Positions 1,468-11,919 of a stretch of DNA of 22,392 nucleotides are shown here, in pieces. The position numbers were made by a program, and so were the translations under genes. Below the pieces are notes generated by a model. The model was not told the origin of the DNA. It made no database searches and saw only the letters and a list, made by a program, of their open reading frames with translations. Source of the stretch: a virus; IMG/VR virus record IMGVR_UViG_3300027895_000010, positions 1 through 22,392 of that record. One strand, written 5' to 3'. Within the stretch, counting starts at the first letter, position 1. Every line of letters begins with the position of its first letter.

Positions 1468-1680
1468 ATGGCTATCGACCACGAGAGGCATAGAATTACG
1501 ATTAAAGCTGTGTCTGATCGCATGTTGCATCCAATTACGTATAACGACGCAGGGGCTCCACGGTCTGATGGTGAGAAGCGTGTTATGCAGGACCATATGG
1601 ACCGAGAAAATATGCGAGAAGATATGCGCAGGTCTCGTCGTGATGCTCGGTTCAGAGATATGATTACTGGTGGTCGATAA
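1468..1680 (+). CDS. Tandem paralog 1 of the H-x-x-x-Y-x-D-x-G family
   Basis: This 70-aa gene is the first of four consecutive paralogs. The N-terminus (D-H-E-R-H at 4-8, S-D-R at 16-18, H-P-I-T-Y-N-D-A-G at 21-29) aligns with the next three proteins over roughly 30 residues. It is the most divergent copy, with A in place of the first G of D-G-G. The rest is a highly charged Arg/Met/Asp-rich helix ending I-T-G-G-R. It follows the Gly-rich gene by two bases, and its stop TAA overlaps the next ATG (TAATG at 1678-1682), so the two are probably translationally coupled. Function is unknown. No membrane segment or signal peptide is seen. Confidence 0.65.
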   Translation: MAIDHERHRITIKAVSDRMLHPITYNDAGAPRSDGEKRVMQDHMDRENMREDMRRSRRDARFRDMITGGR

Positions 1681-1919
1681 TGAATCATGAAGCCAATAGA
1701 GAACGATTAAAGAATTATTCAGACAGAACTGGCCACAAGGTCGAATATAACGACGGTGGCGTGATGGAAGATAATCACATGAAATTGTTCTCGCCTGCCA
1801 ACCGTGATGAAGACAGATTAAATCGAGAAGCCCACAAAAAAGCGCTGCAAGACAAGACCAATCGCGCGCCTGAATTTAATAGAGGGCTCAATTTACGAAA
1901 TCAACCGGTCAGAATTTAA
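1680..1919 (+). CDS. Tandem paralog 2 of the H-x-x-x-Y-x-D-G-G family
   Basis: This 79-aa protein begins M-N-H-E-A-N-R-E-R-L and has Y-S-D-R-T-G-H-K-V-E-Y-N-D-G-G at about 13-27, the shared signature. The C-terminal two thirds (Asn/Arg/Asp-rich, ending N-Q-P-V-R-I) share nothing obvious with its siblings. The start codon overlaps the stop of copy 1 and the stop directly abuts the start of copy 3. Function is unknown. The pattern of conserved head and variable tail suggests a common docking part with a changing effector part, which is inference. Confidence 0.65.
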   Translation: MNHEANRERLKNYSDRTGHKVEYNDGGVMEDNHMKLFSPANRDEDRLNREAHKKALQDKTNRAPEFNRGLNLRNQPVRI

Positions 1920-2096
1920 ATGGACCACGAGTCACACAAAGAAAGAGTTCTGAGGTATCAGGAAAGGTCTGACCACGCAATTAATTACTATGATGGTGGC
2001 CACAACAAAGAACAGCCCAAGGTGCCAAGAAATAAAAACCCCAAGACTATTTGGGATGGCAGCGAAACCTTTGCGATTAATGCGAGGCACAGATAA
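1920..2096 (+). CDS. Tandem paralog 3 of the H-x-x-x-Y-x-D-G-G family
   Basis: This 58-aa gene starts at the base after the previous stop (TAA 1917-1919, ATG 1920) and its own TAA overlaps the next ATG at 2096. The protein starts M-D-H-E-S-H-K-E-R-V, then Y-Q-E-R-S-D-H-A-I-N-Y-Y-D-G-G at about 13-27, closely matching copies 2 and 4. The short tail is Lys/Pro/Asn-rich and ends N-A-R-H-R. The unbroken frame, tight coupling and conserved motif support a real gene despite its size. Function is unknown. Confidence 0.65.
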   Translation: MDHESHKERVLRYQERSDHAINYYDGGHNKEQPKVPRNKNPKTIWDGSETFAINARHR

Positions 2097-2335
2097 TGGA
2101 CCACTGGGAATTTAAAGAAGCTGTACATAGTTACAGACAGCGGTCAGGTCATGCGATTAATTATTACGATGGCGGGTATTCTGCTACAGATACAGGCGCA
2201 GTTACCGCTAGACCAGTGCAGAAAGGATCGCTAGCTAAAGACAAGATGCGTGATTTGCACGGTAGAGCAGATGGAAGTGTGAACAGAGGAACGCGCCGAC
2301 GTAATGTCGACGCCTTAGTGAATGATTATCAGTAA
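2096..2335 (+). CDS. Tandem paralog 4 of the H-x-x-x-Y-x-D-G-G family
   Basis: This 79-aa protein starts M-D-H-W-E-F-K-E-A-V and shares Y-R-Q-R-S-G-H-A-I-N-Y-Y-D-G-G (about 13-27) almost letter for letter with copy 3. The tail is basic (R-G-T-R-R-R-N near residue 67) and differs from the other copies. The start overlaps the stop of copy 3. The stop (2333-2335) touches the stop of the opposing minus-strand gene at 2336 with no base between them. Function is unknown. Confidence 0.65.
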   Translation: MDHWEFKEAVHSYRQRSGHAINYYDGGYSATDTGAVTARPVQKGSLAKDKMRDLHGRADGSVNRGTRRRNVDALVNDYQ

Positions 2336-2479
2336 TTAGAATGGTATTAAATCTTCGCGGGTATCTTTCCATTCTTGCAATCGATAATCATTAGATTCTT
2401 CAAAATATGGTTCACACTCTGGTGGATCATATTCTTTGTTTTCAATTTCATCGTGGTAATAGCTTTTCATTTTTCCCAT
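2336..2479 (-). CDS. Small acidic protein, third gene of minus-strand cassette
   Basis: This 47-aa ORF on the minus strand runs from ATG 2479 to TAA 2336-2338. An in-frame ATG three codons later is an alternative start. AAGGA stands about nine bases upstream. Fourteen of 47 residues are Asp or Glu, with several aromatics, one Cys and no membrane segment. It overlaps the end of the 81-aa membrane protein gene by 32 bases, which supports co-translation. It may be a soluble partner of that protein. Small acidic phage proteins are often inhibitors or DNA mimics, but nothing here proves such a role. Confidence 0.5.
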   Translation of the reverse strand: MGKMKSYYHDEIENKEYDPPECEPYFEESNDYRLQEWKDTREDLIPF

Positions 2480-2693
2480 AATTTTTATTCCTTTTTTCTT
2501 TATTTTGTTGCACTTGAATTATTGTTGCCAATATCAGCGGAGAAGCAAGCAATAACCACGGATAATATTGATACGCAACACCGAAACATATAAATCCGAG
2601 TATCGTACAAGCCAAATAGCCTCCATCTACACTGATGATTAACGCTATAACTATGGATAATATTAATAATAACTGCCAAGGCTCCATAAACAT
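2448..2693 (-). CDS. Small three-span membrane protein, holin-like or exclusion protein
   Basis: This 81-aa protein has hydrophobic stretches at about residues 6-23, 25-42 and 45-62. A Lys/Arg/Asn-rich tail follows (E-K-R-N-K-N near 65-72). Three membrane spans plus a short charged C-terminus is the class I holin layout. It would release the endolysin encoded at 637, which has no export signal. The start codon directly follows the stop of the upstream 56-aa gene (TAA-ATG), and GGAG lies nine bases before it. The gene runs against all neighbouring late genes, which is unusual for a holin. Superinfection exclusion or a host-altering membrane protein is equally possible. Confidence 0.6.
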   Translation of the reverse strand: MFMEPWQLLLILSIVIALIISVDGGYLACTILGFICFGVAYQYYPWLLLASPLILATIIQVQQNKEKRNKNYGKNEKLLPR

Positions 2694-2864
2694 TTATTCG
2701 TGCTCCACATCTGGTGTATCTTGCAAATTACTTTCGATATTACCAAGCATATAAGCTATTCTTAGGAATGCGTCTTTGATAACTTCTTTCTCAAATACTT
2801 CTCTGCATTCATGGGCATAATCTCTAATTTTATTAAGTCTTTCTATTATTTCGTAGTCAGTCAT
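2694..2864 (-). CDS. Small soluble protein, first gene of minus-strand cassette
   Basis: This 56-aa ORF runs from ATG 2864 to TAA 2694-2696 on the minus strand. AAGGA lies five bases before the start, downstream of the strong promoter at 2896-2924. The sequence starts M-T-D-Y-E-I-I-E-R-L and is mostly charged amphipathic helix, with one Cys at about 20 and an acidic end (D-V-E-H-E). The stop is directly followed by the ATG of the membrane protein gene. It may regulate or accompany that protein, for example as an antiholin-like partner, which is inference from position only. I do not recognise the family. Confidence 0.6.
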   Translation of the reverse strand: MTDYEIIERLNKIRDYAHECREVFEKEVIKDAFLRIAYMLGNIESNLQDTPDVEHE

Positions 2865-2895
2865 GTTGCTTCCTTTTTGTTTAGTTAACGAGCAT

Positions 2896-2924
2896 AGTAT
2901 ATTGCAATGTTAAGTTAGTGTCAA
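2896..2924 (-). promoter_or_regulatory. Strong sigma70 promoter for the minus-strand cassette
   Basis: Read on the minus strand, TTGACA (2924-2919) and TATACT (2901-2896) are spaced by exactly 17 bases, with the ribosome-binding site and ATG of the 56-aa gene about 30 bases downstream. The -35 is perfect and the -10 matches five of six. This is the best host-type promoter in the window. Confidence 0.8.
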
Positions 2925-2975
2925 GCGATAGTTTACATTAGATAAAGATATTTTAATAAATATTTAATTTAAGGG

Positions 2976-3003
2976 TTTTCATATCACAAAAAAATTGTAA
3001 TAC
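2976..3003 (+). promoter_or_regulatory. Possible + strand promoter before the terminase-like gene
   Basis: TTTTCA (2976-2981) and TAATAC (2998-3003) are 16 bases apart and precede ATG 3030. An inverted repeat, ATCACA (2983-2988) with TGTGAT (3007-3012), brackets the -10 and could be an operator. Both signals are weak and AT-rich sequence makes chance matches likely. Confidence 0.25.
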
Positions 3004-3029
3004 TTATGTGATGATAAACGAGGAAATAC

Positions 3030-3470
3030 ATGGGCGAATTAGGCGGAGCACCAACTAAATTAACACCCGAGCGAGCCAAGATTATAGTTGATAATGTCCG
3101 TAGTGATTTATCGATAAGTAATGCGGCAAGAATAGCTAGATTATCTCCTCAGACCCCATTGAATTGGATGAAGCGTGGCCAAGAAGATAGAGAGAAAGGC
3201 GTTGATTCTGATTATGTAAAGTTTTTGGATGACGTGCGTGAAGCGCAAGGGTTAAAGGTCCAAGAATTTATGCGAGCAGTGGCAACGATGAATAAAGGCT
3301 GGCAAGCTGTGGCATGGTTGCTTGAGAAATGTTGCGCTGAAGAATTCGGGAAAGATTCTGAATTATATAAGCAACTTCTTGACGACTATAAAATGTTAAT
3401 GCAATCTATAGTTGACCAAAACAAAGGGGTCAATCATGGCAATAAAGCCGCAAATTCAGAAACCAGTTAA
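3030..3470 (+). CDS. Terminase small subunit-like DNA-packaging protein
   Basis: This 146-aa protein has an N-terminal helix-turn-helix (about residues 26-50). It includes I-S-N-A-A-R-I-A-R-L-S-P-Q-T and then W-M-K-R-G, the usual form in phage small terminases that recognise the packaging site. The middle (about 60-110) has F-L-D-D-V-R-E-A and W-Q-A-V-A-W-L-L-E-K, typical of the oligomerisation helices. The final 30 residues are hydrophilic. CGAGGAAA precedes the ATG. The next gene in the set is not a large terminase and none occurs in the window, so the call depends on the helix-turn-helix pattern. The alternative is a generic phage DNA-binding regulator. Confidence 0.65.
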   Translation: MGELGGAPTKLTPERAKIIVDNVRSDLSISNAARIARLSPQTPLNWMKRGQEDREKGVDSDYVKFLDDVREAQGLKVQEFMRAVATMNKGWQAVAWLLEKCCAEEFGKDSELYKQLLDDYKMLMQSIVDQNKGVNHGNKAANSETS

Positions 3471-10479: not shown

Positions 10480-11919
10480 ATGTCTAATTTTGAAACCCTT
10501 GGTTTTATTACAGAGGGCAATATAAGTACGGCTCCTAATGAATTTTATGCGAGCACGGAAGATACATACGCTTTGATTACAGCTGCCGGATATTTAAATG
10601 ATATCTCTGCTAAAGCAAAACAAAACGATTTGTTTTATGTAAACTACTTAGATACTTCTGTGTTTCCATTGAACACAGGCGAGGCTAGTATCTTAACATT
10701 GCTTAAAGTTAACTATAATCCTGGAACAGGCGATTGGAGTTTAGTACCTGCAAACTTAAACCAAAGCGGTGTAACAACACTTGAAGCCCTTGGTTTTCAT
10801 TCTGCGGAACAATCAAGCACAACTACAAGTGCCACTTCAGTTTATAGTGATTCACAAATAAGTGCCGCTTCAATTGCATTTGCTCGTTGGCCAGTAGCAG
10901 CAACAGCAGGTAATGTTGAAGTAGTTACACCAAGTGCTGGTGAATTAACAGTATTGAATAGTGCTACAGCAGGCGTATCTACAATTGCATACTTTTCGAT
11001 TGTTGGTTCTTTAGCTTTAAAGAATCTTGGAGTATATACAGGTCAATATTCATATGCTGGTGGAAGTGCCACAATTGTAATTGATGATGCAAATATTGTA
11101 GTAGGTCAAATTGTAGTTGCTAACTTTGCAAGCTCTGCAACTGCAGTTAAGATTGAAACTATTAGTGTAGCTGCGGGAGTGTTGACTATAGTATGTAGCG
11201 CAAACCCGGGCGCATCAGTAATTTCTTACTTAGCCGTAACTGCATCTACTGCTTTAACAGCATTAGGTTGTTATGCAGCTAGTGCTGCAAGTGCTGGCGG
11301 AAGTGCTACTGTTACAATTACAGATTCAAACATTACAACATCTAGTATTGTAATGGCAGATATGAGCGCACAAACCAATGCATCATACATTGAAAAAGTA
11401 ACTCCAGGCTCAGGAAGCTTAACGATTCTGTTAAATACTGATGCTGGTGCTGCTACATTCAGTTATGTAGCAACAGCCGTGGCGGAAGGAAGCAACCCAA
11501 ATGATTATTTAATTGCTTCTAACAATCTCTCTGATGTTTCAAGTGCATCTTCTTCACTAGCTAATTTAGGTGGTGTTCCATTAGCGGGCGGCCAATTGAC
11601 TGGTTCTGTATTAACAGTTAAGGCTAATGCTACACAAGCATCAACTTCGTTTACTGCTAATGGTCAATCAGGTGTATTAACTACTTCCTCATTATCAACA
11701 GCGGCAGCAGCATCTACAACTCTCACATTTAATAACAGTAAAATTGTATCAACCTCTGTTATTTTAGTGAGTTTGATGGGTGGAACGAATGCCATTCCAG
11801 GTGTTCAGTTGAGTTGCGTGTATTCAAGTACAGGTGTTGCAAACTTAATTATTACCAACAATAACGTTGCTGGTAGTGCTTTAAGTGGTACATTGTTAAT
11901 TGGATACGAAGTTCTATAA
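10480..11919 (+). CDS. Head-fibre/decoration-like protein with 79-residue repeats
   Basis: This 479-aa Ser/Ala/Thr/Gly-rich beta protein begins N-F-E-T-L-G-F and carries three tandem repeats of exactly 79 residues. They are marked by L-E-A-L-G (101-105), L-K-N-L-G (180-184) and L-T-A-L-G (259-263). Each is followed by a strand after S-A-T and a V/I-x-x-V/I-x-x-G-x-L-T-(I/V) strand. Then comes a linker, S-N-N-L-S-D-V-S-S-A-S-S (about 348-359) and L-A-G-G-Q-L-T-G, wording frequent in phage fibres. A final beta domain resembles the repeats more distantly. It sits between capsid and tail genes with a strong AAGGAGCT ribosome-binding site, so I infer a capsid-surface fibre or decoration protein. 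A tail fibre is less likely by position. Confidence 0.65.
   Translation: MSNFETLGFITEGNISTAPNEFYASTEDTYALITAAGYLNDISAKAKQNDLFYVNYLDTSVFPLNTGEASILTLLKVNYNPGTGDWSLVPANLNQSGVTTLEALGFHSAEQSSTTTSATSVYSDSQISAASIAFARWPVAATAGNVEVVTPSAGELTVLNSATAGVSTIAYFSIVGSLALKNLGVYTGQYSYAGGSATIVIDDANIVVGQIVVANFASSATAVKIETISVAAGVLTIVCSANPGASVISYLAVTASTALTALGCYAASAASAGGSATVTITDSNITTSSIVMADMSAQTNASYIEKVTPGSGSLTILLNTDAGAATFSYVATAVAEGSNPNDYLIASNNLSDVSSASSSLANLGGVPLAGGQLTGSVLTVKANATQASTSFTANGQSGVLTTSSLSTAAAASTTLTFNNSKIVSTSVILVSLMGGTNAIPGVQLSCVYSSTGVANLIITNNNVAGSALSGTLLIGYEVL
10780..11490 (+). repeat. Three tandem 79-residue (237-base) coding repeats
   Basis: Residues 101-179, 180-258 and 259-337 of the head-fibre-like protein align without gaps at conserved L-x-x-L-G, S-A-T, and G-x-L-T landmarks. 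The DNA has diverged, with only short shared words such as GGAAGTGC, so the duplications are old. Confidence 0.75.

Follow-up and report, generated by a model that had tools for sequence, protein, structure and literature searches.

Phage T7 has an early region, with gene 0.3 (Ocr), in which the host polymerase drives accessory genes that include acidic anti-restriction proteins. In plasmids, the leading region, which enters early, contains clusters of ArdA and related genes (PMC11541004), and anti-defence genes of archaeal viruses can be recognized by conserved early regulatory sequences (PMC11065993). Hotspots of antiviral systems in P2 and P4 are small variable loci between two conserved genes (PMC9122126). 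Morons, by the definition cited in PMC6814406, have their own promoter, lie outside the flanking operons and are present or absent between the same neighbours. The cassette analyzed here belongs to a known kind of system, the phage accessory hotspot with an early promoter; it has new proteins, with orphan genes among them. We regard it as probably, though by no means certainly, the local version of an exchangeable early accessory (anti-defence or host-takeover) operon with a host sigma70 promoter.

The window, i.e., the whole stretch of DNA that was analyzed, is an IMG/VR virus record of 22,392 nt (22.4 kb). Searches of PHROGs identified a T7-type portal (phrog_332, 3e-50), a major head protein (phrog_3437) and an endolysin (phrog_315), which is located 1.3 kb from the cassette gene m81. 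A literature search of open-access articles found no description of this phage family. The cassette and its flanks contain the following features:

2096..2335, plus strand: conserved gene of the left flank (YYDGG family), with 86% identity in L055 and 73% in L004
2336..2479, minus strand: m47, last gene of the cassette, an ORF for a 47-aa acidic protein of pI 4.3, with an SD-like AAGGA
2448..2693, minus strand: m81, an ORF for an 81-aa small membrane protein (predicted) with a basic tail; SD GGAG at 2706-2703
2489..2493, minus strand: the SD-like AAGGA of m47, inside m81, from the sequence
2694..2864, minus strand: m56, first gene, an ORF for a 56-aa acidic soluble protein of pI 4.6; SD AAGGA at 2875-2871, positive codon score
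2896..2924, minus strand: sigma70-type promoter, -35 TTGACA at 2924-2919, 17-nt spacer, -10 TATACT at 2901-2896, an 11/12 match; relatives keep position and spacing
2994..3005, plus strand: terS-specific motif ATTGTAATACTT, TTTG[TGA][AG]ATACTT in close relatives
3030..3470, plus strand: terminase small subunit gene (terS, phrog_4102, E 7e-14), the right flank, which adjoins the slot in relatives

All three cassette ORFs start with ATG, and the coordinates given for them in the initial annotation were exact. The m56 stop is coupled to the m81 start (TAAATG at 2696-2691), m81 and m47 overlap by 32 nt (2448-2479), and on the minus strand 100% of 2336-2864 lies within ORFs of at least 40 aa, a coverage reached in 0 of 5000 shuffles. 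The sign of the base skew flips precisely over this stretch: the GC and AT skews were -0.18 and -0.13 in the cassette and +0.16 to +0.18 and +0.18 to +0.19, respectively, in both flanks. m56 and m47 had positive codon scores, m81 scored approximately zero, and the overlapping frames had negative scores. The SD-led ORFs, their full coverage and the skew flip bear out the initial claim of three abutting or overlapping small minus-strand genes, and the pI of m47 agrees with its description as acidic. These genes had also been placed inside the late operon and against every other gene. They do oppose every other gene of the window, but not of the genome, which has a second minus-strand block elsewhere (Sak4/Gam-like), and they are located between lysis-side genes and terS rather than within the head-tail block.

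The left-flank gene meets m47 head-on with a gap of 0. The terminator match nearest to 2336 was weak, on the plus strand and not above chance, with no clear one on the minus strand, and an Rfam search of 1900-3200 gave no match. Four successive plus-strand genes on this side (window 1468-2335) resemble tandem paralogues with the motif DHE...HxxxYYDGG or YNDGG, and their copy number differs among relatives.

The predicted transcription start of the cassette would lie near 2889, and 0.5% of shuffles of the intergenic region scored as well as the cassette promoter. A search with the portal yielded 54 related viral contigs, in which promoters were scanned upstream of the first minus-strand gene. 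The 19 viral loci with an intact slot include the window, and several are closely related to one another, so that the counts are not fully independent. In 15 of them, a promoter that matched 10/12 or better and had a spacer of 17 nt was located 31-49 nt before the first minus-strand gene. The other four (L007, L018, L023 and L032) scored 8-10/12 with a spacer of 16 or 17 nt; i.e., all 19 reached at least 8/12 with a spacer of 16-17 nt. Once the true first gene, read from the sequence, was taken, the promoters of L075 and L008 scored 11/12 and 9/12. The form across relatives was TTGACA/TTTACA-17-TATNNT, 31-49 nt from the ATG, and it precedes first genes that have no relationship to one another (MNHIELYE-type, ArdA, LPD29, J-domain and orphans). 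When eight genomes were scanned, 8 of 413 predicted genes had a promoter that matched 11/12 or better with a spacer of 17 nt; seven of these were cassette first genes, the eighth opens the Sak4/Gam-like block, and none was a head or tail gene. Judged by comparison with relatives, the predicted promoter is real, and the TTGACA-17-TATACT element of host type was correctly recognized in the initial annotation. A sigma70-like sequence alone is not proof of early use.

Cassette promoters overlap with direct repeats that resemble operators (CGATAGTTTGCAT twice, TTATCAT twice) or with dyads (AATATTC-N5-GAATATT); these were seen at L004:5099-5133, in the promoter regions of L020, L034 and L040, and at the L002 and L055 promoters. 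A single copy of CGATAGTTTACAT is present at window 2926.

The exact TTTG[TGA][AG]ATACTT motif occurred, among the loci analyzed, only just upstream of terS, and it is probably the -10 element of a late promoter or some other control element. A leaderless terS message transcribed from a late promoter is possible. The motif was located in close relatives 5-6 nt before the terS ATG, mostly without an SD, at the following plus-strand sites: L002:718, L004:5234, L005:1240, L008:2249, L010:1775, L055:4924 and L075:4948.

In most relatives, the plus-strand lysis-side genes and the plus-strand terS are separated by a minus-strand operon. Across 22 loci, 84 minus-strand slot proteins fell into 47 clusters, including 33 singletons. 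The portal of L055 is 96% identical over the stretch present in that contig, yet its cassette is otherwise different. In L019 and L026 the slot is empty, with approximately 50 nt between the end of the plus-strand gene (799 and 1460) and the start of terS (847 and 1512/1518, respectively). Our comparison of this uncultured podovirus family showed a slot, a fixed leftward promoter of predicted form TTGACA-17-TATNNT and fast-changing small genes. The conserved unit is the slot with its promoter and not the genes. The window cassette is not a unique insert. As for conservation of the frames, which the initial annotation raised, m47 has likely relatives, and none were detected for m56 and m81.

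The opposite strand, the own promoter and the variable slot between conserved genes uphold, from sequence, the view of the cassette as an independent unit. Like morons by the definition cited in PMC6814406, it has its own predicted promoter, lies outside the flanking operons and is present or absent between the same neighbours, which adjoin in relatives without an insert. Unlike them, it comprises several genes and occurs in most of the family under a common promoter, and one group also has the last gene in common. The P2/P4 hotspots (PMC9122126) are likewise small loci of 1-5 kb with high gene turnover and two conserved phage genes as flanks; they carry defence against other phages, whereas the recognizable genes here are anti-restriction and accessory genes. 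In the archaeal viruses of PMC11065993, a constant promoter likewise precedes small genes that vary and are presumed to act against host immunity. The motif there stands before many separate genes and early expression was measured, whereas here each genome has one operon, with early expression predicted.

Slot genes with an assigned family are a minority among the relatives' cassettes. ArdA (PF07275, 2e-38 and 1e-35, over the Pfam cut-off) was found in L018 and L020, i.e., 2 of 22 cassettes, and also matched a PHROG of anti-restriction proteins; a known anti-defence gene is therefore present in the slot of relatives. Other occupants were LPD29 (PF18847, 1.4e-18), a J-domain protein (PF00226, 1.2e-10) and an HNH_3+NUMOD4 protein. 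HNH, SSB and J-domain genes do not count as anti-defence genes on their own. Purifying selection was detected in single pairs for the F1 first gene (L002/L055, w 0.03), the J-domain gene (w 0.05) and the last gene of family F0 (L011/L012, w 0.07). The positions of the two recurrent types are as follows:

L018:1007-1525 and L020:3782-4327: ArdA genes of uncultured podoviruses
L011:4205-4681, L012:4320-4796, L015:4450-4935, L032:1667-2197 and L072:2854-3339: J-domain loci

The J-domain protein, which is about 160-176 aa long and has an additional conserved domain at its C-terminus, occurs repeatedly in the slot; PF00226 was tested in L011, and the others cluster with it. By eye, the edge of contig L031 seems to contain the beginning of a further ArdA-like gene. 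The portal is shared with two isolates at approximately 24%: in MEP301, all genes around terS are on the plus strand and no minus-strand cassette was found, and the record of Vibrio phage 1.257.O begins near terL, with the terS side outside it.

None of the three cassette proteins matched a family above the cut-off; hence, the window's cassette has no known anti-defence gene. No match to m56 was found in PHROGs, NCBIfam, PADLOC, phages, Pfam above the cut-off or an IMG/VR peptide-pattern scan, and no homologue of m81 in phages, plasmids, the IMG/VR pattern scan or 16 Rickettsiella-order genomes; tblastn against phages and plasmids gave no relatives of either. Since both are without homology, their function is guilt by position only. 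Assignment of m56 to F1 was rejected because the F1 profile search of the window was not significant, and the Pfam match of m81 to Cytochrom_B558a (E 9e-4, under the cut-off) was rejected as one of membrane composition. The hydropathy of m81 showed two long hydrophobic blocks, and its single-sequence AlphaFold model had three helices (5-21, 25-43 and 45-78; mean pLDDT 74.5). The three membrane spans initially assigned to it are plausible on the model, and in its build m81 resembles small membrane proteins, with two to three hydrophobic helices and a basic tail.

We defined F0 as the family of acidic last genes with the motif YH(G)DE...EWKxxRxD and proteins of 35-47 aa; it is usually the last gene of the operon in the window's group. 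The m47 protein matched the L010 last gene by phmmer (4e-5 and 8e-5), clustered with F0 and shared its position, acidity and the YH(G)DE and EWKxxRxD motifs. In a composition-controlled permutation, p was 0.0025 for the mean, and the best score was reached in 0 of 2000. A profile search of the window with the F0 relatives was not significant for m47, and its membership is therefore likely but not proven, with pairwise, permutation and positional evidence as its basis. The AlphaFold model of m47 was a single helix of low confidence (66).

Relatives keep anti-restriction genes in the slot, and for this reason an early role of the operon in anti-defence or host takeover is probable. We infer its early timing and function as follows. 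Host RNA polymerase with sigma70 would read the operon on DNA entry, ahead of phage-dependent late terS transcription, which would use the separate element TTTG[TGA][AG]ATACTT, and the cassette products would act at once. The products may counter host defences or redirect host machinery, as their slot neighbours ArdA, LPD29 and the J-domain protein suggest. In such an operon, m47 could be a small factor that binds proteins or behaves like a DNA mimic, and m56 and m81 could be recently acquired phage- or host-specific accessory factors. The T7 early region is similar in its acidic proteins and in its early accessory genes, which here too would be read by host polymerase. Here, however, the cassette is on the opposite strand beside terS and has no sequence homology to it, and no phage RNA polymerase was noticed on general inspection of the gene maps. 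The plasmid leading-region hotspots (PMC11541004) resemble it as clusters of small accessory genes, including ArdA, at a fixed position of early expression (presumed here). In contrast, the present locus is in a phage genome with an ordinary sigma70-like promoter and no conjugation, and the window's own cassette lacks a gene of known anti-defence family.

A bolder reading, which we put forward tentatively, is that F0 is a new phage microprotein family whose early function is a core one, as a DNA mimic or an inhibitor of a host protein, and that m56 and m81 are a new host-specific counter-defence or exclusion module. Superinfection exclusion by m81, which was raised initially and is one option only, seems unlikely. 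The protein would enter the inner membrane soon after infection and block further phage DNA entry, as T4 Imm does. In favour are its predicted build, small and polytopic with a basic tail, the host-type promoter ahead of it, and the slots of L012, L015 and L055, which also encode small membrane proteins, these with a single helix and a basic tail. However, m81 has no sequence relationship to anything, including known exclusion proteins (no match in phages at E up to 0.5, in PHROGs below 0.01 or in PADLOC), and cluster comparison showed that the membrane gene is not conserved in the slot. Membrane damage by m81 likewise finds no support from homology. The assigned occupants of relatives point to early anti-defence or host takeover instead.

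Slightly less likely still is a moron for lysogenic conversion, in which a resident prophage would express the unit independently of the lytic programme and the lysogen would benefit. The moron structure proposed initially is indeed there, with a host-type promoter, opposite strand, variable content and sites empty in L019 and L026; it is the lysogenic role that lacks support. The family genomes are mostly 33-36 kb, and three contigs have a 127-nt terminal repeat, consistent with circular assembly. The whole genomes carry a replication protein and a second block, with Sak4-like and Mu Gam-like genes, on the strand opposite to that of the late genes; a Cro-like HTH gene is divergent from this block. 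This regulator would suit lysogeny, but 18 viral records from the family yielded no tyrosine integrase (PF00589), the window itself being a fragment. Integration was found only in distant relatives (portal 57-64%) in Rickettsiella genomes, where an R. massiliensis element and two elements of another genome from that taxonomic order have integrase and repressor-like genes. The Rickettsiella prophages examined had no comparable consensus promoter at the slot, which was filled by a minus-strand SSB in 4 of 4 Rickettsiella-order elements, suggesting that the minus-strand slot is old. These SSB genes, named by eye, are upstream of terS:

L081:3636-3788, minus strand
L082:8086-8511, minus strand
L093:10334-10759, minus strand
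L094 (reverse complement) 10507-10890, minus strand

Family portal relatives are integrated in Rickettsiella-order chromosomes in L080-L082, L084, L093 and L094, some decayed and some with the portal intact. An Aquirickettsiella gammari contig is listed with a coverage of 421.

A holin or antiholin misplaced into the operon would fit the size of m81 (about 80 aa), its two to three helices, basic C-terminus and nearby endolysin; this is highly improbable, as the host promoter would drive m81 at infection, which is unfavourable for a holin, and a lysis function should be conserved, whereas m81 has no relatives. That the ORFs are chance or decayed sequence, with the promoter for antisense regulation only, would suit the lack of m56 and m81 homologues and the near-zero m81 codon score but is scarcely credible against the full coverage, SD sequences, skew inversion, purifying selection on equivalent tiny genes of relatives and conserved m47 family.

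The distant relatives of the family have their home in Rickettsiella, an intracellular group (Legionellales). For the family itself, the fixed promoter beside terS is a signpost to mostly unannotated small proteins, the 84 in 22 loci with 33 singletons in this set. If these are early anti-defence genes, the promoter would provide a simple route to collecting candidates across the podovirus family.
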